Shown: positions 44,024-61,151 of the stretch, piece after piece | Position numbering within the stretch: position 1 is the first letter of the stretch | Layout of the letters: each line of letters opens with the position of its first letter | Source of the DNA: Coriobacteriia bacterium | GTDB taxonomy: Bacteria; Actinomycetota; Coriobacteriia; Anaerosomatales; Anaerosomataceae | Assembly: GCA_016938135.1 (NCBI GenBank) | Contig: JAFGVD010000030.1 | Location: forward strand, 1 to 64,000 | Length of the DNA: 64,000 nucleotides | Direction of reading: 5' to 3' | The notes under the pieces: model-generated | What the model saw: only the letters and a program-made list of their open reading frames with translations | Database searches by the model: none | Told to the model about the DNA's origin: nothing | Translations under genes and position numbers: made by a program

Positions 44024-45463
44024 CTAGAGTGTGAACAGCCTGAGGACCTCACTGATGCCGGTGATCAACGGACCGACGCCACCTACTACTACGAGTAGCG
44101 CGGATATCACTGCAACAACCGAGGCCGACGATCCGCCTCTCCCAGAAGGCTCAGGAAGTCCTCCTGCCACCGTGGCGCCGGGCGCGTACATGGCGATCAG
44201 GACCTTGCCGTAGTACCCGAAGGAGATCACCGAGCCCAGCACGCCGGCCACCGCCAGCCACGTGAGCCCTGCCGATATGGCTGATGTGAACACCAGAAGC
44301 TTGCCCCAGAAGCCCAGGAAGAGCGGAATCCCCGTCAAAGACAGAACCGCGACCACCATCGATACAGCCAGGACCGGCACCTCGGCGGCCAGTCCGGCCA
44401 GCCCCGCGATGCTCCCGTCCCACTGAGGACGTCGCTCACGTATAGCTGCGACCGCGAAGAACGCAGCGGCTACACCCAGAGCATATGTGACCGCGAAGAT
44501 GGCGGTCTCCTCGTACCCAATGACTCCCGACGCAAGCCCGATGAGTCCATAGCCTACCTGGGCAACGCCCGAATAGCCCAACATCCTGGTCAGCGAGCTC
44601 TGACGAAGGCCGCCCAGGTTGCCGATGACTATGGATGCAGCAGCCACCACAGCGATAGCCGTTGTCCCGGAGGGAAAACGCTGAGCGTTGAACAGGCCGG
44701 CCGGGAACACCATGAGCAGGGCCATAAGAGCGCCTATCTTGGGCGCAGACGCCAGGAAGGCGGCTGTGGCAGGCTCTGTGACCTCGTAGACATCCGGTGC
44801 CCAGGTATGGAACGGTGCGGCACCCAGTTTGAATGCGAACGCCGAGAGGATCAGCACCATACCAAGTGCCGCCACCCGGGACCCACCGTCGAGGGCGTTG
44901 CAGAGTCCGAGGTAGTTCGTGGAGCCGAAGATGCCGTAGAGGACCGCAAGTCCCAACAGCGTGAAGCCGGTTGCAACCCCGCCCTGGATGAAGTAGCGCA
45001 AAGCGGCCTCATCAGCGCGACGACCACCCGCACCACTGACCAGTGCGTATCCCGCAATTGCTATCGTCTCCAATACGAGGATCGTCGTGAGCAGATCGAG
45101 AGAAGATATCAACACGTGTATGCCAAGCGCGCTAAACGCGGTGATGGCCGCCATGGTGACACCGCGATGCGTGGAGGCCACCTGCCTCCATCCCGAAAGT
45201 ACAGAGAGCGCCGCGATCAGATAGACAACTGATGCCGCGACGGAAAGGACCCCGCCGCTCACGAACGTCACATCCAACAGCGGTGTGGGAGTGAGCGTAA
45301 GGCCGGTCCAACCGCACACGCCGAAGGCAGCCACAAGCGACACGGCGATGATACCGGCTCCTGCAGCGCGATGCCTCAAGGCATCCGCAAGAAGACCGAA
45401 TACCGCACCCGCGACGACGATCGCAGCAGGGATCCACAGCGATATCGGTGTCACGTTCTCCAT
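44024..45463 (-). CDS. nuoN: NADH-quinone oxidoreductase subunit N
   Basis: A 479-residue antiporter-like membrane subunit of complex I with about 14 helices. Conserved charged residues in helices are present, for example in LGAAPFHTWAPDVYEVTEPATAAFLASAPKIGAL, the NuoN/L/M signature region. It pumps protons (or Na+) in the membrane arm. It is last in the nuo operon, directly after nuoM with no gap. The AT-rich intergenic region beyond it has no clear nuo terminator apart from the hairpin at 43868-43893. Confidence 0.95.
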   Translation of the reverse strand: MENVTPISLWIPAAIVVAGAVFGLLADALRHRAAGAGIIAVSLVAAFGVCGWTGLTLTPTPLLDVTFVSGGVLSVAASVVYLIAALSVLSGWRQVASTHRGVTMAAITAFSALGIHVLISSLDLLTTILVLETIAIAGYALVSGAGGRRADEAALRYFIQGGVATGFTLLGLAVLYGIFGSTNYLGLCNALDGGSRVAALGMVLILSAFAFKLGAAPFHTWAPDVYEVTEPATAAFLASAPKIGALMALLMVFPAGLFNAQRFPSGTTAIAVVAAASIVIGNLGGLRQSSLTRMLGYSGVAQVGYGLIGLASGVIGYEETAIFAVTYALGVAAAFFAVAAIRERRPQWDGSIAGLAGLAAEVPVLAVSMVVAVLSLTGIPLFLGFWGKLLVFTSAISAGLTWLAVAGVLGSVISFGYYGKVLIAMYAPGATVAGGLPEPSGRGGSSASVVAVISALLVVVGGVGPLITGISEVLRLFTL

Positions 45464-46912
45464 CTACTGGCCACCTCCCATGGTCAACGCAAGCACTTTA
45501 CTGACCGGGTCGGTGAGCGAAAGCACCGTCGCAGGCCATAGGCCAAGAAACACGATGGGCACTATGAAGGCCGCAGCTATGATGCGCTCGCGTGTTGAGA
45601 GATCGGCGATATCGGTCCACTCGGGCGCCAGAGTGCCGTGAGCAACAGCACGTACCGCGTACAGGTTGTAAGCGGCGGATAGAACGACCCCCACTCCCAC
45701 CGGGGCTATCCACCAGCCGAAGCGACTGAAGCCCTCCAAGACGCTGAGGAGCTCACCCGGGAACCCCGAAAGCCCCGGCAGTCCCAGACTTGCGAGGGCG
45801 GCGAACACGAACGCGCCTCCAAAGACAGGAATCTTCGAACCAAGGCCGCCGAAGCGCGAGATCTCCCGCGTATGGGTTCGTTGGTACACCGCACCGACGA
45901 GGAAGAACGACAGACCGGAGACAAGACCATGACTCACCATGATGAGCATGGCGGCCCCTATCCCGGCGCTGGTTCCGGCGGAGATGGCCAGCAGCATGAA
46001 TCCCATATGCGCTACAGACGAGTACGCCACCAATCGCTTGAGGTCGCTCTGACCGAGGGCGAGCACCGCACCGTACATGATGCCGATGCCACCAAGGACC
46101 GCAAGCACGGGGGCTGCTGCCGAGAATGCCTCGGGAGCCGCCGGGAGCGCCACGCGCAACAGGCCGTAGCCGCCCATCTTGAGCAACACTCCTGCAAGCA
46201 TGATCGAGCCCGCCGTAGGCGCCTCGACATGTGCGTCAGGAAGCCACGTGTGCAGAGGTACCACCGGGACTTTGACCAGCAGACCTGCGGCAAGGAGCCA
46301 GAACACAAGACTCTGGCTCGCCGGATCCGCAGCGCCTACCCCTCCCACGATAGTGAGGGTCTGTACTGACCGTGCAAGGACGATGATGCCGATGAGCATC
46401 AAGGCTGAACCCAGGAACGTGTAGATGAAGAACTTCAACGCTGCCGCTCGACGGTTCTCATGACCCCACACCGAGATCAGGAAGAACATCGGAATCAGCA
46501 CGGCCTCCCACGCCACATAGAACAAGATGAGGTTGTCGGCCAGGAAGACCGCCATCACAGCCGCCTCAAGGCCCAGCAGCAAGGCGTGATGAGCCGTCGG
46601 GCTCTCCCCCACCTCCCAGGAGCTCAAGATGGCAAGACAGGTCAGAAATCCGGTCAGTACGACCAACGGCAGCGACAGGCCGTCTATCGCCAGCATCACG
46701 AACCCGGTGCCAGGGATCGCGGCTTCGATACCCCATCTCAGGGCCTCCGAGCCACCGTCGTGCAAAGCAGCGGCCAGATACAGCGTCACGATGAACGTGG
46801 CCAGCGCGAAGATCGAAGCCAGCAACCTTGACCGGGAGCGGTCTCCCCCGCCGAAGAGAACCACCAAGATCACACCTACAAGAGGAAGAAGGACCGGGAG
46901 CAGTACGCCCAT
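45464..46912 (-). CDS. nuoM: NADH-quinone oxidoreductase subunit M
   Basis: A 482-residue antiporter-like subunit. The start MGVLLPVLLPLVGVIL has GGGAGG close upstream; in-frame sequence further upstream overlaps nuoL and is not homologous. Key blocks are YVAWEAVLIPMFFLISVWG, VKVPVVPLHTWLPDAHVEAPTAGSIMLAGVLLKMGGYGLLR and LVAYSSVAHMGFMLLAI, with the lysines and glutamates of the proton channel. Two bases separate it from nuoL. Confidence 0.96.
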   Translation of the reverse strand: MGVLLPVLLPLVGVILVVLFGGGDRSRSRLLASIFALATFIVTLYLAAALHDGGSEALRWGIEAAIPGTGFVMLAIDGLSLPLVVLTGFLTCLAILSSWEVGESPTAHHALLLGLEAAVMAVFLADNLILFYVAWEAVLIPMFFLISVWGHENRRAAALKFFIYTFLGSALMLIGIIVLARSVQTLTIVGGVGAADPASQSLVFWLLAAGLLVKVPVVPLHTWLPDAHVEAPTAGSIMLAGVLLKMGGYGLLRVALPAAPEAFSAAAPVLAVLGGIGIMYGAVLALGQSDLKRLVAYSSVAHMGFMLLAISAGTSAGIGAAMLIMVSHGLVSGLSFFLVGAVYQRTHTREISRFGGLGSKIPVFGGAFVFAALASLGLPGLSGFPGELLSVLEGFSRFGWWIAPVGVGVVLSAAYNLYAVRAVAHGTLAPEWTDIADLSTRERIIAAAFIVPIVFLGLWPATVLSLTDPVSKVLALTMGGGQ

Positions 46913-46914
46913 CT

Positions 46915-48732
46915 CTACCTCCCTCCCCATCCGATGACAAGTGCGGTGAGCACGACCACACCCGCGGCTACCAGGGCAGCGCCAAGATCGATCTGGCCGG
47001 TTTGGAGCGACGTCGACACGCGTCCGAGGCCCACCGTGAGCCTGGCGACACCGTTCACGATGCCATCGATCAGGCCGCGGTCTGCTCGGCGATAGATCTT
47101 CCCGGAAAGAGAGCGCGCGGGTGTCACGAAGATCGCCACCAGAAGCGCGTCGACGCCAAAAGCCGAAGCCATGGCCGGATATGCGCCGCCCAGACGTCCC
47201 TGAAGCGCTACATCGGAGGCAGGGCCTCGTTTGTAGACCATCCAGCCTGCCGCCACACCGGTCACAGCCACCAGTGCCGAGACGACCGCCACCGTAGGAT
47301 CGAGTCCGGCATGCCCGCCCAACAGCTCCGCAAGCCACTCGCCGGCAAAACCCAATCCCACAGCGCCCGAGGCAAGCACCATCAGCGGAAGGGTCATGCT
47401 CAGCGGTGATTCGTGCGGATGACCCTGCCCGCGGAACTGCCCGCCGAACGCCAGAACGGTTGCGCGAGTGATGTAGAACGCGGTCATCAGACTTGCGAGC
47501 ACCAGGAGTCCGCCCGCGACGGGCGATGCGACGGTCACCGCGTGGATGATGCCGTCTTTGGAGAAGAAGCCGGCCAAAGGCGGTATCCCGGCCAGCGCTC
47601 CGGCACCCAGCACCCATGTGATGGTGGTGACCGGCATATGGCTGCGCAGGCCGCCCATCTCGTGAAGGTCCTGCGTACCGGCGGCGTGGATGACGCTACC
47701 GGATCCCAGGAAGAGCAGCGCTTTGAAAGCCGCATGGGTCACAAGGTGGAACATCGCGATCTGCCACGACCCGGCTCCCAAAGCGGCGAACATGAAGCCC
47801 AGCTGACTGATGGTTGAGTAGGCCAAGACGCGCTTGATGTCACGCTGGGCGACTGCGGCTGCGGCCGCGCCAACCGCGGTCACGAGGCCAATCCAGAGCA
47901 TGACGTACAAGGTGAGTTCCGAGGCGGCGAACACCGGCCACATGCGTGCCACCAGGAACACGCCCGCGGCGACCATGGTGGCCGCGTGGATGAGAGCCGA
48001 CACCGGTGTGGGGCCTTCCATCGCCTCGGGAAGCCAGATGTGCAGCGGGAACTGCGCAGACTTGCCCGCCGCGCCCGCAAACAGCAGTAGGGCGGCAGCG
48101 GTGGCGACGCCGCCCGAAAGCGCCGTGACGCCGGCTCCGATGAGGGCGATATCAGCCGTCCCGGTGCTGGACCACAGCAATGCGATCCCCAGCAGAAATC
48201 CGACGTCGCCCACACGCGTGACGATGAACGCCTTCATCGCGGCGTTCGCGGCCGACGGCTTGTGATACCAGAACCCGATGAGCAGGTAGCTGCAGGCGCC
48301 GACGACCTCCCACGCCGCGAACAGGCCGACCAGCGTGGTGGAGACGACAAGTCCCGTCATCGCCGCACTGAACAGCGAGAGAAGCGCGAAGTACCTGGCC
48401 TGAGCGGGGTCCTCGGCCATATAGCCTATGGAGAACAGCACCACAGAGGCCGAGACAACACCGACGACCACCAGCATGATGGCAGCCAGCGCGTCGACTG
48501 AAGCACCCACCGCGATGGAGCTCGCTCCCTGAGAGAGCCAGGACACAGAGACGACCGGTGCGCTGGTGTGGGCAGACAGTCCGGCGACTCCGGTAGCCAG
48601 CACCAGTGCAGGGCCGATGAGCGCGAACCAACGTGTCACGGGCACCGCACGACGACCCGCAATGGCGATAGCAAGGGCAATAAGGGCCGGAGCGGCCACT
48701 GCGATCCAGGGCTGTTGCAGAAGCTGTGACAT
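46915..48732 (-). CDS. nuoL: NADH-quinone oxidoreductase subunit L
   Basis: A 605-residue distal antiporter subunit. WEVVGACSYLLIGFWYHKPSAANAAMKAFIVTRVGDVGFLLGI and KSAQFPLHIWLPEAMEGPTPVSALIHAATMVAAGVFLVAR are the classic NuoL signatures. KRVLAYSTISQLGFMFAALG follows. The C-terminal part (after about 500) would form the lateral helix. Its start codon shares a base with the nuoK stop. Confidence 0.96.
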   Translation of the reverse strand: MSQLLQQPWIAVAAPALIALAIAIAGRRAVPVTRWFALIGPALVLATGVAGLSAHTSAPVVSVSWLSQGASSIAVGASVDALAAIMLVVVGVVSASVVLFSIGYMAEDPAQARYFALLSLFSAAMTGLVVSTTLVGLFAAWEVVGACSYLLIGFWYHKPSAANAAMKAFIVTRVGDVGFLLGIALLWSSTGTADIALIGAGVTALSGGVATAAALLLFAGAAGKSAQFPLHIWLPEAMEGPTPVSALIHAATMVAAGVFLVARMWPVFAASELTLYVMLWIGLVTAVGAAAAAVAQRDIKRVLAYSTISQLGFMFAALGAGSWQIAMFHLVTHAAFKALLFLGSGSVIHAAGTQDLHEMGGLRSHMPVTTITWVLGAGALAGIPPLAGFFSKDGIIHAVTVASPVAGGLLVLASLMTAFYITRATVLAFGGQFRGQGHPHESPLSMTLPLMVLASGAVGLGFAGEWLAELLGGHAGLDPTVAVVSALVAVTGVAAGWMVYKRGPASDVALQGRLGGAYPAMASAFGVDALLVAIFVTPARSLSGKIYRRADRGLIDGIVNGVARLTVGLGRVSTSLQTGQIDLGAALVAAGVVVLTALVIGWGGR

Positions 48733-49028
48733 CAGCCGGTCACCTCCCCGAACTCATCGACTTGAGAGCGACCGGTACGCTTGAACGCCGCGATGAGCAG
48801 CGCAAGCCCTACTGCCGCCTCGGCAGCCGCCATGACCAGGACCATGAGTCCCAACGACTGGGTAGTGGAGGCGTCTTGGCCACTGACGGTAGCGAGGGCG
48901 ACCAGCAAGACGTTCGCCCCGCCCAGCATGAGCTCCAGTCCTATGAGGACGCCGATGACGTCTCTTCGCGAGAGCACCACGAACAGACCGGCACCGAAGA
49001 CGAAAGCACAGGCGACCAGGATGCTCAT
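48732..49028 (-). CDS. nuoK: NADH-quinone oxidoreductase subunit K
   Basis: A 98-residue subunit with three membrane helices. LIGLELMLGGANVLLVAL contains the conserved intramembrane Glu, and VLVMAAAEAAVGLALLIAAFKR the second. Normal length for the family. It overlaps nuoJ by four bases and nuoL by one. Confidence 0.94.
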   Translation of the reverse strand: MSILVACAFVFGAGLFVVLSRRDVIGVLIGLELMLGGANVLLVALATVSGQDASTTQSLGLMVLVMAAAEAAVGLALLIAAFKRTGRSQVDEFGEVTG

Positions 49029-49519
49029 CGCTCATCCCCCCTGCCCACGATGACAAGCACCGCAAGGACCGCGACGAGCAGGAGCGCACCCGCGATCTCA
49101 AAGGCTGGAAGGTAATGTTCCAACAGGACAGAAGCCATGGCGCCGCTGTCTGCAGCGCCGGGCGCAGGGACCGTGGTTGTGAACTCGGGCGCCAGGACGG
49201 TGACGATGAGTACCGTGACCGCGGACGCGGTCACCGCGGCGGCCCAGTCCCAGCGGACCTCCATCAGCAGCTTGTCCCCATCGCCCCGGCGCACCATCAT
49301 GAGCGCGAAGAGGACCAGGATGAGAACTCCTCCCACATAGACGAATAGCTGTGCCACAGCCAGGAATGCGAGGCCGAAGTAGAGGAAGCTGGCTGCGACG
49401 CCCAGCAAGAACACCCCAAATGACAGCGTCAGCCGCATGGCCTCGCGTGACAGCACGACGCCAAGTGCTCCCGACGTGAGCAGCACGATCACGGCCCAGA
49501 AGGCGATGGTCGAACTCAT
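49025..49519 (-). CDS. nuoJ: NADH-quinone oxidoreductase subunit J
   Basis: A 164-residue subunit with five hydrophobic helices. YFGLAFLAVAQLFVYVGGVLILVLFALMMV is the family signature, including the pi-bulge helix that flips during the catalytic cycle. The C-terminal helix (FEIAGALLLVAVLAVLVIVGRGD) is typical. It overlaps the stop of the upstream NuoI-like fusion (ATGA) and nuoK. Confidence 0.94.
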   Translation of the reverse strand: MSSTIAFWAVIVLLTSGALGVVLSREAMRLTLSFGVFLLGVAASFLYFGLAFLAVAQLFVYVGGVLILVLFALMMVRRGDGDKLLMEVRWDWAAAVTASAVTVLIVTVLAPEFTTTVPAPGAADSGAMASVLLEHYLPAFEIAGALLLVAVLAVLVIVGRGDER

Positions 49520-51570
49520 GGGCGCTCACCCGGCCCTGTGCGAGGTGCTGGACAGACAGGTGAGGTGATTCCATCCAGTCCCGTCGCGCGACTTCCTTGA
49601 TCGCTGCGCAACATCTCCCCCTTGTCGAAGGTCATGAGGTCCCGGTGGTAGAACGACAACTCATACTGTCCCGTATGCTGCAGCGCTCCGGTGGGGCACT
49701 GCTCGGCACAGAGGCCGCAGAAGCAGCACTTCGTGAGGTCCAGCTCGTATGTGGTGAGGCAGCGCGCACCGGGTTGGTCGGTGCGCTCAACCTTGATGGC
49801 GAAGTCAGGGCAGGTGCGCGCGCAGAATGTGCAACCCACGCAGACCTCGGATTCGCAACGAAGACAGCGGGCCGCCTCGGCCATGGCCTGCTCTTTGGTG
49901 AGTCCGGACTCCACCGGACGGAAGTCTGTGGCCCGTTCATCGGGATCCGCCAGCGTCACGACAGCCCTTCTGCGATCAGGTTCCACGTACTCCATGTCCA
50001 CGGGAGCGTACTTCTCGTATACAGGCACGGGACGGGCGATGCGACCCTCGGTAAGCGAGCGACCCTCGAGCTGGCGGTGTATGGACGTGGCGGCTTCGTG
50101 CCCTGTGGCAACGGAGTTGATGGCGCTACCGGGTCCGGTGACCACCTCGCCGCATGCGAACACACCCGGCACCGATGTGGTGCCGTCTGCGCCGTCCACG
50201 ACAAGCTGACCCCTGCCTGAGACGAGCAGATCGGTGCCGCTTACCAGACTGTCCAGCCGTGCCGCCTGACCGATGGCGAAGACCACGACGTCGGTCTCGA
50301 TGTCTTGGGTGTCCTCACCGTAGGTCGGCGAGAACCGACCGGTCTCATCGAACACCGACAAGCACGGCTTCATACGCATGCCGGTGACCTGGTTGTCCTC
50401 CGAGAGCACCTCAACAGGCCCCATCGAGCACATCGCGATGACGCCTTCGTCAACGGCTTCTTCGATCTCCCAGGGATGGCACGGCATCTCCTGGTCGGAC
50501 TCCAGACATGAGAGCCGAACCTCGGTAGCGCCGACGCGCAAGGCACAGCGCGCGACGTCCACCGCGACGTTGCCGCCGCCGATGACCAGCAGGCGCCTGC
50601 CCTTCACGCCTGCGTCGCCCAGGTTGTTGGCCGCCCACAAGAACTCCAGAGCGCCGACGACACCATCGGCATGGGTTCCCGGCAACGGCAGGATACGGCT
50701 GTCTTGGAGGCCTACCGCCAGAAGCACCGCGTCGTTCTCGCGCATGATGCTGGAGAGCATGACGTCTTTGCCCACCTCGGTCTCGCAACGAAGGTCCAGA
50801 CCGAGTGCGACAAGATCGGCGATCTCGCCATAGAGGACGTCGCGCGGGAGGCGGTAGGACGGCACGCCCGTGGATAGCGCGCCGCCTGGCTGCGCTTCTC
50901 GCTCGTACATAGTCACTGTGTAGCCCAGAGACATCAGGTCATACGCGGCGGCCAACCCTGAAGGACCGGAGCCGATGATGGCCACGCGCTGATCACGTGT
51001 CTTGGGCAGAGGCTTGATGCGTTCGGCCGCCACCTTGCGGTACTCCTCGTACGCGAAACGGTGCAGCAAACGGATCGAGATGGGCTCGTCGTAGCGGTTG
51101 CGTCGACAGGCCGACTCACACGGATGGTGGCAGATGCGGCCCAGCACGCCCGGCAAGATGTTGCGCTCCCGCACGAGCTCGTACGCCTCAGGGATGCGAC
51201 CATCTGCGATCAGGAACGCCTGGCCGCGCGCATCGACATTCGCGGGGCAGCTGCCCGTGCACGGCGAGAGGCGATCGTTGCGGTACAGCCCGTCGATCTT
51301 CGCGTTGTACTCATGCGGAGGCGCCGAGACAAGATCGATCTCATCTCGGCCAAGTGCTCCTTTGAGTTGCAGCGCGCCGCGCCAGCGATCGCTGACCGTC
51401 ACCTTCTCCTGTGGATAGCGCACGGTTATAGGCTTGCGCGTGGACGCGCTTGCGGTGATGCCCAGTCCCGTGAGCAGTGATCGAGCACCTTGCATGAAGC
51501 CTTTCACGCCGGGCGCGTACTCATCGGATACGGTCTCCGGGACCGGGAGCCGGTTCTCGTCTACAGCCAT
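49516..51570 (-). CDS. NuoI-like subunit with an inserted GltD-like FAD/NAD(P) oxidoreductase module
   Basis: A 684-residue protein in the nuoI position. Residues 22-70 (including RKPITVRYPQEK and RWRGALQLK) look like the NuoI N-terminus. A GltD/NfnB-type module follows: an N-terminal 4Fe-4S region with C104, C108, C147, C151 and C155, an FAD loop IIGSGPSG (198-205) and an NAD(P) loop GGGNVAVD (331-338), up to about 500. NuoI then resumes: C577-x2-C580-x2-C583-x3-C587 and C615-x2-C618-x2-C621-x3-C625, ending QYELSFYHRDLMTFDK as in NuoI. Inferred role: NAD(P)H (or other donor) oxidation delivered straight to the NuoI clusters, replacing NuoEFG. The ATG at 51570 overlaps nuoH by ten bases. Confidence 0.92.
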   Translation of the reverse strand: MAVDENRLPVPETVSDEYAPGVKGFMQGARSLLTGLGITASASTRKPITVRYPQEKVTVSDRWRGALQLKGALGRDEIDLVSAPPHEYNAKIDGLYRNDRLSPCTGSCPANVDARGQAFLIADGRIPEAYELVRERNILPGVLGRICHHPCESACRRNRYDEPISIRLLHRFAYEEYRKVAAERIKPLPKTRDQRVAIIGSGPSGLAAAYDLMSLGYTVTMYEREAQPGGALSTGVPSYRLPRDVLYGEIADLVALGLDLRCETEVGKDVMLSSIMRENDAVLLAVGLQDSRILPLPGTHADGVVGALEFLWAANNLGDAGVKGRRLLVIGGGNVAVDVARCALRVGATEVRLSCLESDQEMPCHPWEIEEAVDEGVIAMCSMGPVEVLSEDNQVTGMRMKPCLSVFDETGRFSPTYGEDTQDIETDVVVFAIGQAARLDSLVSGTDLLVSGRGQLVVDGADGTTSVPGVFACGEVVTGPGSAINSVATGHEAATSIHRQLEGRSLTEGRIARPVPVYEKYAPVDMEYVEPDRRRAVVTLADPDERATDFRPVESGLTKEQAMAEAARCLRCESEVCVGCTFCARTCPDFAIKVERTDQPGARCLTTYELDLTKCCFCGLCAEQCPTGALQHTGQYELSFYHRDLMTFDKGEMLRSDQGSRATGLDGITSPVCPAPRTGPGERP

Positions 51571-52508
51571 GCGGCGATCACCCCCGCAGCGAAGAGTTGG
51601 ACGATGGCGATGGGCGTGAGGATGGTCCAGCAAAACGTCATGAGCTGGTCTTGCCGGAGACGCGGGAAGGTCCACTTCATCCACATGATGATGGTCATCA
51701 GAACCGCACCGACGGCGATGAAGGCCACCACGCCCCATGCCCCCGGCAACAGCCGGAAACCTCCGAGGAACATCGCGGCGCCGAACAGGCTGGCCGCGAT
51801 CATGCCGCCGTACTCACCCATCATGAAGACCGCCCAGCGGATACCTGCGTAGTCGGCGAAGTAGCCCGCCACAAGCTCGGACTCCGCCTCAGGGATATCG
51901 AAAGGACCCCGGTTCATCTCGGCGATGGAGGAGATCAGATAGACAATGAAGCCCACAAACGTCGCGGGGATCCACCACCACTCCCATGCGTCCATCACGG
52001 CCACCGGGCGCAGCGTCCCGGCCAGCACCAGCACGGAGAGCACTGACAGTGACCGCGGCACTTCGTAGCTGACCATCTGCGCGGCTGCACGCACGCCGCC
52101 GATGGCAGAGAGCGTGTTATGCGACGCCCAGGCCGAGAACAGGATCCCCAGAACCGATATCGAGGGGACCGCCAGGAAGAACAGTGCGCCGGCGGTGGCG
52201 TCGAAGGGCGCCCAGCCCGTAGCGAACGGGATGACGGCCACAGACATCGCTATGGGCGCGAACACCGCTAGCGGCGCGTAGCGGAAGAACGGCTCGTCGG
52301 CTGCGGCAGGGATGATGTCCTCTTTGAAGAGCAGCTTCGGCACGTCCGCGACCATCTGCAAAGATCCGGCCGGGCCGATCTGTTGCGGTCCGAGTCGCAA
52401 TTGGATGCGCGCGGAGACCTTGCGCTCCCACCACACACCGACTATCGCACCGCCGGCGATGACCATGACAGCGGCCACGCCCCACAGCATTCCCCACAAA
52501 AAGCTCAT
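51561..52508 (-). CDS. nuoH: NADH-quinone oxidoreductase subunit H
   Basis: A 315-residue subunit with about eight helices forming part of the quinone chamber. WWERKVSARIQLRLGPQQIGPAGSLQMVADVPKLLFKEDIIP is the hallmark first loop, and EMNRGPFDIPEAESELVAGYFADYAGIRWAVFMMGEY the conserved glutamate-rich loop. RLRQDQLMTFCW ends the core. It overlaps nuoD by four bases and lies directly before the NuoI-like fusion, the usual H-I order. Confidence 0.96.
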   Translation of the reverse strand: MSFLWGMLWGVAAVMVIAGGAIVGVWWERKVSARIQLRLGPQQIGPAGSLQMVADVPKLLFKEDIIPAAADEPFFRYAPLAVFAPIAMSVAVIPFATGWAPFDATAGALFFLAVPSISVLGILFSAWASHNTLSAIGGVRAAAQMVSYEVPRSLSVLSVLVLAGTLRPVAVMDAWEWWWIPATFVGFIVYLISSIAEMNRGPFDIPEAESELVAGYFADYAGIRWAVFMMGEYGGMIAASLFGAAMFLGGFRLLPGAWGVVAFIAVGAVLMTIIMWMKWTFPRLRQDQLMTFCWTILTPIAIVQLFAAGVIAAWL

Positions 52509-53599
52509 CGGTCCACCTCCCCGAACACCGGGTCCAGCGAGCCGAGGATGACGACGAGGTCGGAGAGCGTGTGCCCCTCGGCCAGCATCGGGACCAGCGC
52601 CAGGTTGCAGAAGGCTGGCGAGCGGACCTTCATGCGATACGGACGCGGCGTGCCGTCAGAGACCAGATACACGCCGAGAGAACCACGGGCACCTTCAATG
52701 TGGTCATAGGCTTCGCCGGGTCGCGGCGTGATCAGCCTGGGGACGGCCTCGGCCATCACCGGACCGGGCTCGATCTGGTCGAGGGCCTGCTCGATGATGC
52801 GGCAGCTCTCGATCGCCTCCCATAGCCGCACGCGTGCCCTGTCATAGCAGTCACCGTTGGAGCCAAGCGGGATGTCGAAGTCCAGGCGCGGGTAGACGCT
52901 GTAGCTGTCGTCCCGGCGCAGGTCCCAGCTCACGCCGCTTCCGCGAGCCACCGGCCCCGAAGCGCCCCACGCGACCGCGTCTTCGGGAGCCAAGACGCCG
53001 ATGCCTTTCATGCGCTGGCGAGCGATGACGTTGCCGAACAAGAAGCGATCCACCTCGGCCATCGCCGAGGGGTGCGAGCGGCAGAACGCACGAACGTTGT
53101 CCACCCAGCCCTCAGGCACGTCCATAGAGACGCCACCGGGGCGGACATAGTTGTAGGTAAGGCGGGCGCCGCACAGCTGTTCGAACAGGTCCACGACCTG
53201 CTCGCGTTGGGCGAAGGTGTACATGAACGCCGTGGTGGCACCAACATCGGCACCTGCGGGGCCGACCGACATCATGTGGCTTGCGATGCGCTGCAGCTCA
53301 CAGACGATGACACGCAGGTACTCGGCACGCTCCGGCACACGGATGCCGGCAAGCCGCTCCACCGCCCTGCAGTACGCCCAGTTGGCGTACATCGAGCCAA
53401 CATAGTCCAGACGGTCAGTGAGCGGCACCACTTGCAGGTAGGTGCGGTTCTCGGCCATCTTCTCGATACCGCGGTGCAGATGACCGATGACCACCTCGAC
53501 GTGGCGGACGATCTCGCCATCCAGAGTCGTGACCATGCGGCACACACCGTGAGTAGAGGGGTGCGACGGACCTATGTTCACAACGAGTTCTTCAGTCAA
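52505..53599 (-). CDS. nuoD: NADH-quinone oxidoreductase subunit D
   Basis: A 364-residue 49-kDa-type subunit lining the quinone site. NIGPSHPSTHGVCRM holds the conserved His of the quinone pocket, followed by GYLHRGIEKM-like GHLHRGIEKMAENRTYLQ and RPGGVSMDVPEGW. I choose a TTG start at 53599: AGGAGG is eight bases upstream, whereas a GTG nine bases earlier is only one base from that site. NuoC and NuoD are separate genes here. Confidence 0.95.
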   Translation of the reverse strand: MTEELVVNIGPSHPSTHGVCRMVTTLDGEIVRHVEVVIGHLHRGIEKMAENRTYLQVVPLTDRLDYVGSMYANWAYCRAVERLAGIRVPERAEYLRVIVCELQRIASHMMSVGPAGADVGATTAFMYTFAQREQVVDLFEQLCGARLTYNYVRPGGVSMDVPEGWVDNVRAFCRSHPSAMAEVDRFLFGNVIARQRMKGIGVLAPEDAVAWGASGPVARGSGVSWDLRRDDSYSVYPRLDFDIPLGSNGDCYDRARVRLWEAIESCRIIEQALDQIEPGPVMAEAVPRLITPRPGEAYDHIEGARGSLGVYLVSDGTPRPYRMKVRSPAFCNLALVPMLAEGHTLSDLVVILGSLDPVFGEVDR

Positions 53600-53611
53600 C
53601 GCGCACACCTC

Positions 53612-54073
53612 CTAGATGTAGTCGGGACGGCGGATCATCCGCTCGTCTTCGTAGTCTTTACGGAGCGGATAGCCCACCCAGTCGTCGGTCAGCAGGATGC
53701 GCCGCAAATCGGGATGGCCGTCAAATACGATCCCGAACATGTCATAGACCTCGCGCTCGTGCCAGTTGGCCGCGGGCCACAGATCGCACAGCGACTTGAT
53801 ATGCGGGTCTTCTCTAGGCACCTCTGCTTTCAGAAATATGCCGGCGCGCATCTCTCGGGATGTAACGCGGTAGACAAGCTCAAAAGTCTCGCCACGATCG
53901 ACCGCCGTAACCATGCCGAGCCGGTCGAATCCAAGGTCACGCATGTCTGATGCCGCCGAGTAGAGACGCTCAGCTGCAACCGTGAGAGAGCCGTCCCCGA
54001 ACTCGACCGAGAACAAAGGACACAGGTCCGGATACTCGCTACACAGGTGCTCGCGGAGTTCGTTGATGTTCAC
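53612..54073 (-). CDS. nuoC: NADH-quinone oxidoreductase subunit C
   Basis: A 153-residue 30-kDa-type subunit. WPAANWHEREVYDMFGIVFDGHPDLRRILLTDDWVGYPLRKDY is the unmistakable signature. It is structural, in the connecting module with NuoB, D and I. The N-terminal region is short. The ATG overlaps the nuoB stop (ATGA); nuoD starts 12 bases after it. Confidence 0.96.
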   Translation of the reverse strand: MNINELREHLCSEYPDLCPLFSVEFGDGSLTVAAERLYSAASDMRDLGFDRLGMVTAVDRGETFELVYRVTSREMRAGIFLKAEVPREDPHIKSLCDLWPAANWHEREVYDMFGIVFDGHPDLRRILLTDDWVGYPLRKDYEDERMIRRPDYI

Positions 54074-54666
54074 TTGCGCCCACCGCCGTCTCTCAGAGCC
54101 TGGATACGGTCGCCCGCGCGCGGGTCTCCGGGAAGCGGCAGCACATATTCCACATCACGCACCCGACCCGGAGCGACGGACTCAGAGTCCACCTTCTTGC
54201 GCAACTGGAAGATCGCGTCTTGCAGCGCTTCGGGACGCGGAGGGCATCCGGCGATGTAGACATCCACGGGCAAGAACTCGTCCACGCCGCGAACGACCGA
54301 GTACGTGTCGTAGTAGAAGATGCCGCCTGAGACCGCGCAGTTGCCCATGGCGATGACCCACTTGGGGTCCGGCATCTGATCGTAGAGACGCTGGACAGCC
54401 GGCGCCATCTTGTACGTGATGGTCCCAGCCACCACCATCACGTCGGTGTGGCGAGGATCGGCGCGCGGGATGGTGCCGTGCCTGTCGAAGTCGAACTTCG
54501 AGAAAGAAGCGGCGATGAGCTCCATCGCACAGCACGCAGTACCCATCGGCATAGTCCACAAAGACTTGCCTCGAGACCAATCCATGATGGCGTCCACACT
54601 TGTGAGGATGACACTCCCGCCGGGAGAACTATCCAGAGCTTTTCCGAGGTCGTCTATGAGGGCCAA
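54070..54666 (-). CDS. nuoB: NADH-quinone oxidoreductase subunit B
   Basis: A 198-residue subunit carrying cluster N2, the last before quinone. The tandem cysteines are in GTACCAMELIA, the others in GNCAVSGG and AGCPPRPEAL. A TTG start at 54666 is favoured because AAGGGAG lies seven bases upstream; it makes the gene overlap nuoA by 13 bases. The next in-frame ATG is too far inside. DFDRHGTIPRADPRHTDVMVVAG is also well conserved. Confidence 0.95.
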   Translation of the reverse strand: MALIDDLGKALDSSPGGSVILTSVDAIMDWSRGKSLWTMPMGTACCAMELIAASFSKFDFDRHGTIPRADPRHTDVMVVAGTITYKMAPAVQRLYDQMPDPKWVIAMGNCAVSGGIFYYDTYSVVRGVDEFLPVDVYIAGCPPRPEALQDAIFQLRKKVDSESVAPGRVRDVEYVLPLPGDPRAGDRIQALRDGGGRK

Positions 54667-55022
54667 CGCAGTGCTCCCTTCTGCCAGGCGTAGTACAGAC
54701 CGAAGCCGAGGAACACCGCAAAGGAGCCGACCTCTATGGCGCCGATGACGGAGCCACGTACGGCGGGAGCGACGGCAAACAGCAGGACCGTCTCGGCATC
54801 GAAGATCACGAATAGAAGCGCGATGGTGGAGAACCTGAGGTTGACCGGGACCCATGGCGAGCCGCCCTGGGGGATCCCGCACTCGAAGGCTTCATGCTTG
54901 GCCTCACCGGGTGAACGAGGCGCCAGAACGCGGTTCACCACCAACAAGATGAGCAGGAAGACGACCGGGCCTGCTGCCAGGCCCATGACAAACAGTACGC
55001 TGTCCGAAGAAGCAAACTGCAC
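54654..55022 (-). CDS. nuoA: NADH-quinone oxidoreductase subunit A
   Basis: A three-helix subunit of about 122 residues. KHEAFECGIPQGGSPWVPVNLRFSTIALLFVIFDAETVLLFAVA holds the conserved Cys loop and the FDxE helix. I use the GTG at 55022, with GGGGGA four bases upstream; a TTG at 55034 is possible and adds four residues. First gene of the 11-gene operon. A Rex-like operator and a putative promoter are 36-75 bases upstream. Confidence 0.93.
   Translation of the reverse strand: MQFASSDSVLFVMGLAAGPVVFLLILLVVNRVLAPRSPGEAKHEAFECGIPQGGSPWVPVNLRFSTIALLFVIFDAETVLLFAVAPAVRGSVIGAIEVGSFAVFLGFGLYYAWQKGALRWPS

Positions 55023-59666: not shown

Positions 59667-61151
<1,485 letters not shown>

Follow-up and report, generated by a model that had tools for sequence, protein, structure and literature searches.

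What donates electrons to the many complex I-like enzymes without NuoEFG is a long-standing question. It is raised again by a nuo operon of a Coriobacteriia bacterium (assembly GCA_016938135.1, contig JAFGVD010000030.1), where the answer appears to lie within one polypeptide. The window analyzed comprises positions 1 to 64,000 of the forward strand of this contig. The bacterium belongs to the Anaerosomatales, a mostly uncultured actinobacterial order in which some members are known as subsurface anaerobes and cultivated members exist. In the nuoI place of the operon, a gene on the minus strand (49516..51570) encodes a protein of 684 amino acids. This protein is a NuoI that is split, between residues ~30–70 and its first cysteine motif (residue 577), by a GltD-type flavoprotein module. 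Its motifs and its position make it likely that the fusion serves an 11-gene complex I both as NuoI and as the module for electron input (N module), a linear, non-bifurcating replacement of NuoEFG in one polypeptide.

Two NuoI pieces around a GltD-type module

The fusion gene lies between nuoH and nuoJ in a compact minus-strand operon, nuoA-B-C-D-H-[fusion]-J-K-L-M-N, which extends from 55022 down to 44024 and in which each gene was assigned by Pfam or NCBIfam. Its ATG at 51570 overlaps the stop of nuoH. The coordinates of the open reading frame in the initial annotation were retained and its strand was set to minus; a plus-strand reading was rejected because frame 1 contains several stops there. 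The same gene-by-gene assignment found no nuoE, nuoF or nuoG among the genes of the operon, as first annotated.

In a search of the whole genome, the NCBI model of NuoI (TIGR01971) matches the fusion frame twice and in colinear order. Model positions 1–42 are found at 51343–51468 (24.7 bits, E 2.1e-5) and positions 40–120, covering the cluster domain and the tail, at 49615–49854 (74.7 bits). A second profile was built from 30 ordinary NuoI sequences of Anaerosomatales. With this model, two colinear pieces (positions ~10–50, then ~56–131) are present in all 46 distinct fusion sequences, and about 500 residues are inserted between positions ~50 and ~56. The window protein scores 27.8 bits for the N-terminal segment and 59.9 bits for the NuoI domain. 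The two pieces flank the GltD module, which is thus an internal insertion and not an end-to-end fusion, as had been proposed.

The N-terminal NuoI segment comprises residues 30–70 (51361..51483) and ends just past the RWRG motif, which bears out the NuoI-type N-terminus of the initial annotation. Residues 71–97 (51280..51360) form a linker to the GltD module outside both sets of profile matches. The NuoI domain with two [4Fe-4S] clusters (residues 574–652; 49615..49851) contains CxxCxxCxxxCP twice, followed by the NuoI tail. The insert, first placed at residues ~80–560, is therefore closer to 71–573. A return to NuoI at ~560 holds for the two cysteine motifs and the ending, but C569 and C572, which precede them, belong by homology to the GltD module. 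Compared with ordinary NuoI, the fusion shares the N-terminal segment, both motifs, the tail and the place in the operon, and differs by the insert.

The same GltD core and two C-terminal [4Fe-4S] motifs are combined in PRK12771/NF009410 ('NAD(P)-binding protein'), which matches residues 98–631 of the fusion. Its cut-off is not reached by the fusion (446.9 versus 516 bits), nor by the paralogue L092 (473.3 bits). A soluble protein of this type adjoining the nuo genes by chance is ruled out by the N-terminal NuoI piece and by a gap in scores. The piece is absent, by our own model, from all 20 GltD-type paralogues (counted after removal of the fusion fragments L035, L052 and L091), so that paralogues of the PRK12771 layout differ from the fusion in this segment. 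NuoI-domain scores are at most 23.7 bits in paralogues and 45–79 bits in fusions. As a control, the best of 2300 shuffled N-termini scored 6.9 bits, compared with 11.0–33.4 bits for the 46 real ones. Of the seven f36-family fusions, six have a weak N-terminal piece (E 0.003–0.02).

NuoI-like and GltD parts also occur in one chain in PRK13984/NF010590 ('putative oxidoreductase'). An ordinary NuoI (L198) matches positions 24–125 of this model and the fusion matches positions 198–607. Judged from those two matches, PRK13984 differs in that its parts are joined end to end, with an uninterrupted NuoI-like part first.

Layout and cofactor sites of the inserted module

Residues 98–573 are GltD-like. 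The Pfam domains Fer4_20 (69.3 bits, cut-off 25.8) and Pyr_redox_2 (90.6 bits, cut-off 26.1) pass their gathering scores, and phmmer aligns the region with chains of NfnABC, StnC, Nfn, GltS and dihydropyrimidine dehydrogenase (DPD). The core (residues 98–505; 50056..51279), delimited by Pfam, phmmer and conservation, contains the probable ligands C104, C108, C147, C151, C155 and H170. It is followed by a segment (residues 532–573; 49852..49977) with the motif EAARCLRC, which includes C569 and C572. A model of this segment built from the fusions matches residues 20–58 of a 479-residue NfnB-type protein that this genome also encodes (E 2.5e-17). Residues 532–573 thus correspond to the N-terminal segment of ordinary GltD/NfnB and the module is circularly permuted. 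In the other 19 paralogues this segment is likewise located after the core, and the permuted layout is common to them and the fusions. The first NuoI cysteine motif begins five residues beyond EAARCLRC. This direct adjacency suggests a wire from flavin adenine dinucleotide (FAD) through two [4Fe-4S] clusters to N6a, N6b and N2.

Alignment to known GltD-type chains predicts seven cysteines (C104, C108, C147, C151, C155, C569 and C572) and one further ligand, residue 170, for the two GltD clusters. Their pairing into two clusters is presumably that of the DPD structure. The five cysteines of the core, C572 and the eight NuoI cysteines are conserved in 46 of 46 fusions and C569 in 45. Residue 170 (51061–51063) is His in 38 and Lys in eight fusions; of the 20 paralogues, 19 have Lys there and the NfnB-type protein has Glu. 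H170 aligns without gaps with K170 of StnC (8oh5_C). In the accessible parts of the respective papers, the equivalent ligand is described as Gln in DPD and Glu in GltS (PMC8097209), as Glu in NfnB and as Lys170 in StnC, where it completes an FAD-proximal cluster with three cysteines (PMC10482914). The predicted fourth ligand of this cluster thus forms a natural series, His versus the Lys, Glu and Gln of known relatives. Two further cysteines, residues 381 and 403, are present in 33 of 33 close orthologues and in 35 and 37, respectively, of all 46 fusions.

The FAD loop (GSGPSG) and the second, nucleotide-binding loop (GGGNVAVDVAR) are both present and their motifs are not degenerate, in agreement with the initial annotation. 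Where NfnB- and StnC-type relatives have YRR behind this second loop, all 33 close orthologues carry CLE or SLE; the window protein has CLES. An acidic residue after the second Rossmann loop favours NADH, YRR being a signature for NADPH and CLE for NADH. The replacement of YRR by CLE/SLE therefore suggests NADH as the nucleotide. As judged from two sequence comparisons, the GltD core is under purifying selection (nonsynonymous divergence, dN, 0.11–0.18; synonymous divergence, dS, 1.0–1.2 and near saturation).

Among known proteins, StnC/NfnA of StnABC/NfnABC (8oh5, 9bov, 9n5u) resemble the fusion in the GltD module with FAD, the trailing RCLxC segment and a non-cysteine ligand of the proximal cluster. 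They differ in their NuoG-type N-terminus, their bifurcating StnAB partner, their function as soluble NADPH transhydrogenases and in Lys replacing the His of the fusion. In DPD, too, a GltD-like domain hands electrons on to a ferredoxin-like domain with 8Fe, according to the available text of PMC8097209. There, the ferredoxin domain belongs to the other subunit, an FMN (flavin mononucleotide) domain reduces pyrimidines and no complex I part is present.

Distribution and origin of the fusions

A search for the same architecture in other genomes, proposed in the initial annotation, was productive. The fusion is present in 34 of 41 Anaerosomatales genomes, this one included (E <= 1e-100), two of them with contig-edge fragments (G024, G032). 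A separate NuoI (E <= 1e-18) is found in 32 of the 41, only a partial one in G022. The nine genomes without it all carry the fusion, which would have to serve as NuoI there because no other NuoI reaches this threshold; two of these nine are only 65% and 73% complete. All seven genomes without the fusion carry a separate NuoI. Four genomes with the fusion (G040, G100, G156, G176) have no PF01512 match.

The search by kinship was confined to the phylum. Only two candidates per genome were scored in the phylum sample of 396 genomes, so that counts are lower bounds. At least 22 genomes match at E <= 1e-120: four of the own family, 13 of other families with full fusions, one with a frame-broken fusion (G292) and four with a paralogue only. 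A search with NuoD gave two more fusions, one whole (L209, family f21) and one cut by the contig end (L206, f64). Outside the order, at least 16 genomes of nine families thus carry the fusion (14 whole, one frame-broken, one contig-cut). A contig scan with the single protein, which reaches close relatives only, gave 13 loci, whose titles are without exception actinobacterial (Coriobacteriia, Anaerosomatales, Actinobacteria, Actinomycetes, Actinomycetota, once Aeromicrobium). The fusion sits among nuo genes in Anaerosomatales and beyond. Its placement between nuoH and nuoJ is not kept in some distant genomes: gene order differs in L209, and L082, L084 and L085 have nuo genes on both strands. 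This recurrence within and outside the order shows that the fusion is no assembly error.

A single origin of all fusions was rejected, since their GltD cores are not monophyletic. The approximately unbiased (AU) test of one clade gave p-AU 0.0054 for 46 fusions and 20 paralogues, and p-AU 4.7e-8 for a second set of 18 fusions, three split and 11 paralogue rows. The second set was put together once the first tree was known, from 27 of the 66 rows in that tree and five new ones, and long branches in both sets, above all L057, temper the result. The fusions of f36 and those of f21 and f64 are placed apart from the main clade of cores. In the NuoD tree (42 rows; L195, L196 and L199, of unknown kind, were dropped), on the other hand, a single clade (99/97.8) unites 28 fusion rows with two rows that have ordinary NuoI. 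Because the cores are not one clade while the NuoD rows group together, either the module was exchanged or insertion at this site occurred more than once. The two ordinary NuoI genes, L198:3836-4342 (G075) and L200:5319-5819 (G123), belong to family f36, and the NuoD of their operons falls within a group of relatives that carry the fusion. In these two cases the insert may have been lost or replaced.

In all three loci fetched from family f38 (L201:1301-5442 in G276, L202:1209-5733 in G107 and L204:1505-5706 in G069, each on the minus strand), two genes occupy the nuoI place. The first gene encodes the NuoI start through the first cysteine motif (58.7–68.2 bits, own model) together with an FMN protein of the NuoF/HydB/StnB type (PF01512, PF10589). 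In the product of the second, a [2Fe-2S] part of the NuoG type is joined to a permuted GltD that carries YRR and to ferredoxin motifs, and a NuoI-like motif with tail comes last (47.0–50.7 bits). An additional cysteine motif lies just ahead of the last one, and the pairing of motifs with the first protein is ambiguous. For L202, the best solved matches are 9bov_B for the first protein and 9bov_A for the second. By these matches, NuoI of f38 seems to be divided over two polypeptides by a Stn/NfnABC-type module. More tentatively, NuoI may be a recurrent socket of complex I for whole electron-input modules, namely permuted GltD of more than one lineage (NADH- or NADPH-type) and the two-gene Stn/NfnABC type in f38; we consider this generalization doubtful at present.

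Electron input into complex I and alternative readings

The other genes of the operon, all on the minus strand, are nuoA (54654..55022, PF00507), nuoB (54070..54654, PF01058), nuoC (53612..54073, PF00329), nuoD (52505..53608, PF00346), nuoH (51561..52508, PF00146), nuoJ (49025..49519, PF00499), nuoK (48732..49028, PF00420), nuoL (46915..48732; TIGR01974, PF00361, PF00662), nuoM (45464..46963, TIGR01972; the start is approximate, as the longer listed frame begins inside nuoL) and nuoN (44024..45463; TIGR01770, PF00361). NuoD contains the motifs GPxHPSTHG and DRLDY and lacks the CxxC of NiFe enzymes, and NuoB has four cysteines; we take these to indicate the quinone site, the absence of NiFe ligands and cluster N2, respectively. 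The operon therefore has the features of a quinone-reducing complex I. Elsewhere in the window (59667-61016), inspection by eye shows a minus-strand protein in which a repetitive, head-like domain comes after collagen-like G-x-x repeats.

In the rest of the genome, the sole PF01512 protein is RnfC (TIGR01945, 504.8 bits), and NuoF as a hidden partner was rejected on this ground. NuoF, and with it the 14-subunit form of complex I, is thus absent from the genome by the PF01512 search; no separate search was made for NuoE and NuoG. The rnf cluster (contig 26, L056:6549-15592) lies beside genes for a NiFe-hydrogenase and an NAD-binding subunit. By eye, these hydrogenase genes resemble group 3b sulfhydrogenase. 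A separate nuoI, which the initial annotation regarded as a test of its proposal, does exist, but in another nuo operon (contig 40; L055:3449-11813, L034) with an ordinary NuoI (157-residue frame) and at least NuoD, L, M and N. This second operon probably uses a different input, with ferredoxin as a candidate. The menaquinone-pathway family PF02621 is present in the genome.

Taken with this genomic setting, the motifs strongly suggest that the GltD module feeds electrons into complex I. The insert probably lets the enzyme take them from NADH (or NADPH) without the three-protein NADH module. From the motifs and by homology we infer the following route, including nucleotide, direction, coupling and catalysis. 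NAD(P)H, most likely NADH, would donate a hydride to the FAD of the permuted module. Single electrons would leave through the proximal [4Fe-4S] cluster (C108, C147, C151 and probably H170), pass to the distal one (C104, C155, C569 and C572) and continue to the two NuoI clusters N6a and N6b (eight cysteines, 577–625). They would then reach N2 of NuoB and the quinone at NuoD/NuoH, driving the pump. GltD-like proteins are described, in the accessible part of PMC8097209, as making electrons of NAD(P)H available to a second protein or domain.

Complexes without NuoEFG are already known, and the nuoABCD-HIJKLMN complexes have the same gene set as the fusion operon. In the available text of PMC11238625 and PMC4959651, the donor is sought outside the complex (ferredoxin, hydrogenase or FpoF) and an insert in NuoI is not described, whereas the fusion has an FAD/NAD(P)H module inside NuoI. 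The nuo loci of two cultivated Anaerosomatales also lack NuoEFG; donors such as ferredoxin are suggested, and the available part of that paper does not mention a flavoprotein insert (PMC9686372). A full-text literature search, with subscription papers mostly outside its reach, found no description of a NuoI-GltD fusion. The interruption of NuoI by a permuted GltD flavoprotein module appears to be new.

The same device may work mainly in reverse: quinol from membrane hydrogenase or formate oxidation, together with the proton-motive force, would reduce NAD+ (or NADP+) at the flavin of the GltD module in support of CO2 fixation. Reversibility is known for complex I as well as for flavins of the GltD type. 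According to the accessible sections of PMC9686372, cultivated relatives grow on H2 or formate; they have uptake hydrogenases of group 1i and, putatively, the reductive glycine pathway. However, the sequence fixes no direction and the second complex I and Rnf of the genome could equally do that job; a mainly reverse operation is unlikely, if the most credible of the alternatives. Ferredoxin as the physiological donor is considerably less probable. In that case the GltD module would act as a regulator or provide a side exit through which ferredoxin or the NuoI clusters equilibrate with NAD(P)H. Reduced ferredoxin was suggested for the cultivated Anaerosomatales since NuoEFG is missing, and the same sections report pyruvate:ferredoxin oxidoreductases (PMC9686372). 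This reasoning presupposes that a nucleotide module is missing, yet one is present here; its motifs are conserved, its core appears to be under purifying selection and the other complex I of the genome has an ordinary NuoI free for ferredoxin.

An NfnB-like bifurcation or confurcation at the FAD of the GltD module, involving NAD(P)H and ferredoxin together, would agree with the best Foldseek matches (chains of NfnABC, StnABC and Nfn), obtained with a weak model. The arginine at the flavin N5 of NfnB has a counterpart in R240 (PxYRL), which aligns with R239 of StnC and is invariant in a 14-row alignment. This mode is nevertheless even a little less probable than a ferredoxin donor, because there is no second acceptor arm among the nuo genes (NfnA- or HydBC-type genes were not found there; partner genes elsewhere in the genome were not searched), the proximal cluster has His or Lys as ligand where NfnB has Glu, and StnC, likewise permuted, is non-bifurcating at its FAD (PMC10482914, accessible part). 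A misassembly, or a decaying fusion in which GltD has inactivated NuoI, has a negligible probability. The genome is assembled in 49 contigs and the distant case G292 lies in two broken frames, but there are 46 distinct fusion sequences from many genomes, and the gene has a single stop-free frame, low dN and a complete set of cysteines.

Several observations weigh against the fusion as an NADH-fed input module of a quinone-reducing complex I. The whole protein stays below the TIGR01971 cut-off (94.7 versus 113.05 bits). The ordinary NuoI of the genome does so too (107.2 bits), and any match, ordinary NuoI included, exceeds this cut-off in only two of 41 genomes of the order. C569 is replaced by Ser in one fusion (L080). 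Nucleotide motifs vary among the fusions: seven of 13 distant ones have YRR, and GAGD or GGGD replaces GGGN in L082, L084 and L085. CLE is usual in PRK12771-type paralogues as well; since most of these carry it, the motif is inherited and not a special adaptation. The AlphaFold model, computed from an alignment of 14 sequences, is poor (mean predicted local distance difference test score 53.7; N-terminal segment and NuoI domain mostly <50), and the Foldseek matches accordingly serve only as support for the GltD fold. An attempt to deepen the alignment via viral contigs found no relative among 33 stretches. Furthermore, respiratory quinones were not detected in two cultivated Anaerosomatales, as stated in the accessible text of PMC9686372.

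If the fusion is the input module proposed here, it would join NuoEFG, FpoF/FqoF and the docking of ferredoxin or flavodoxin as another type of N-module, and the use of ferredoxin assumed for these bacteria would be called into question. As the order has cultivated members, the donor, the flavin and the coupling are open to direct test. If FMN in the f38 complex still bifurcates as it does in StnB/HydB, electron bifurcation would be an integral part of a complex I that pumps protons. The site just before N6a tolerates the insertion of an enzyme of 500 residues, which bears on how the N-module first joined the quinone module.

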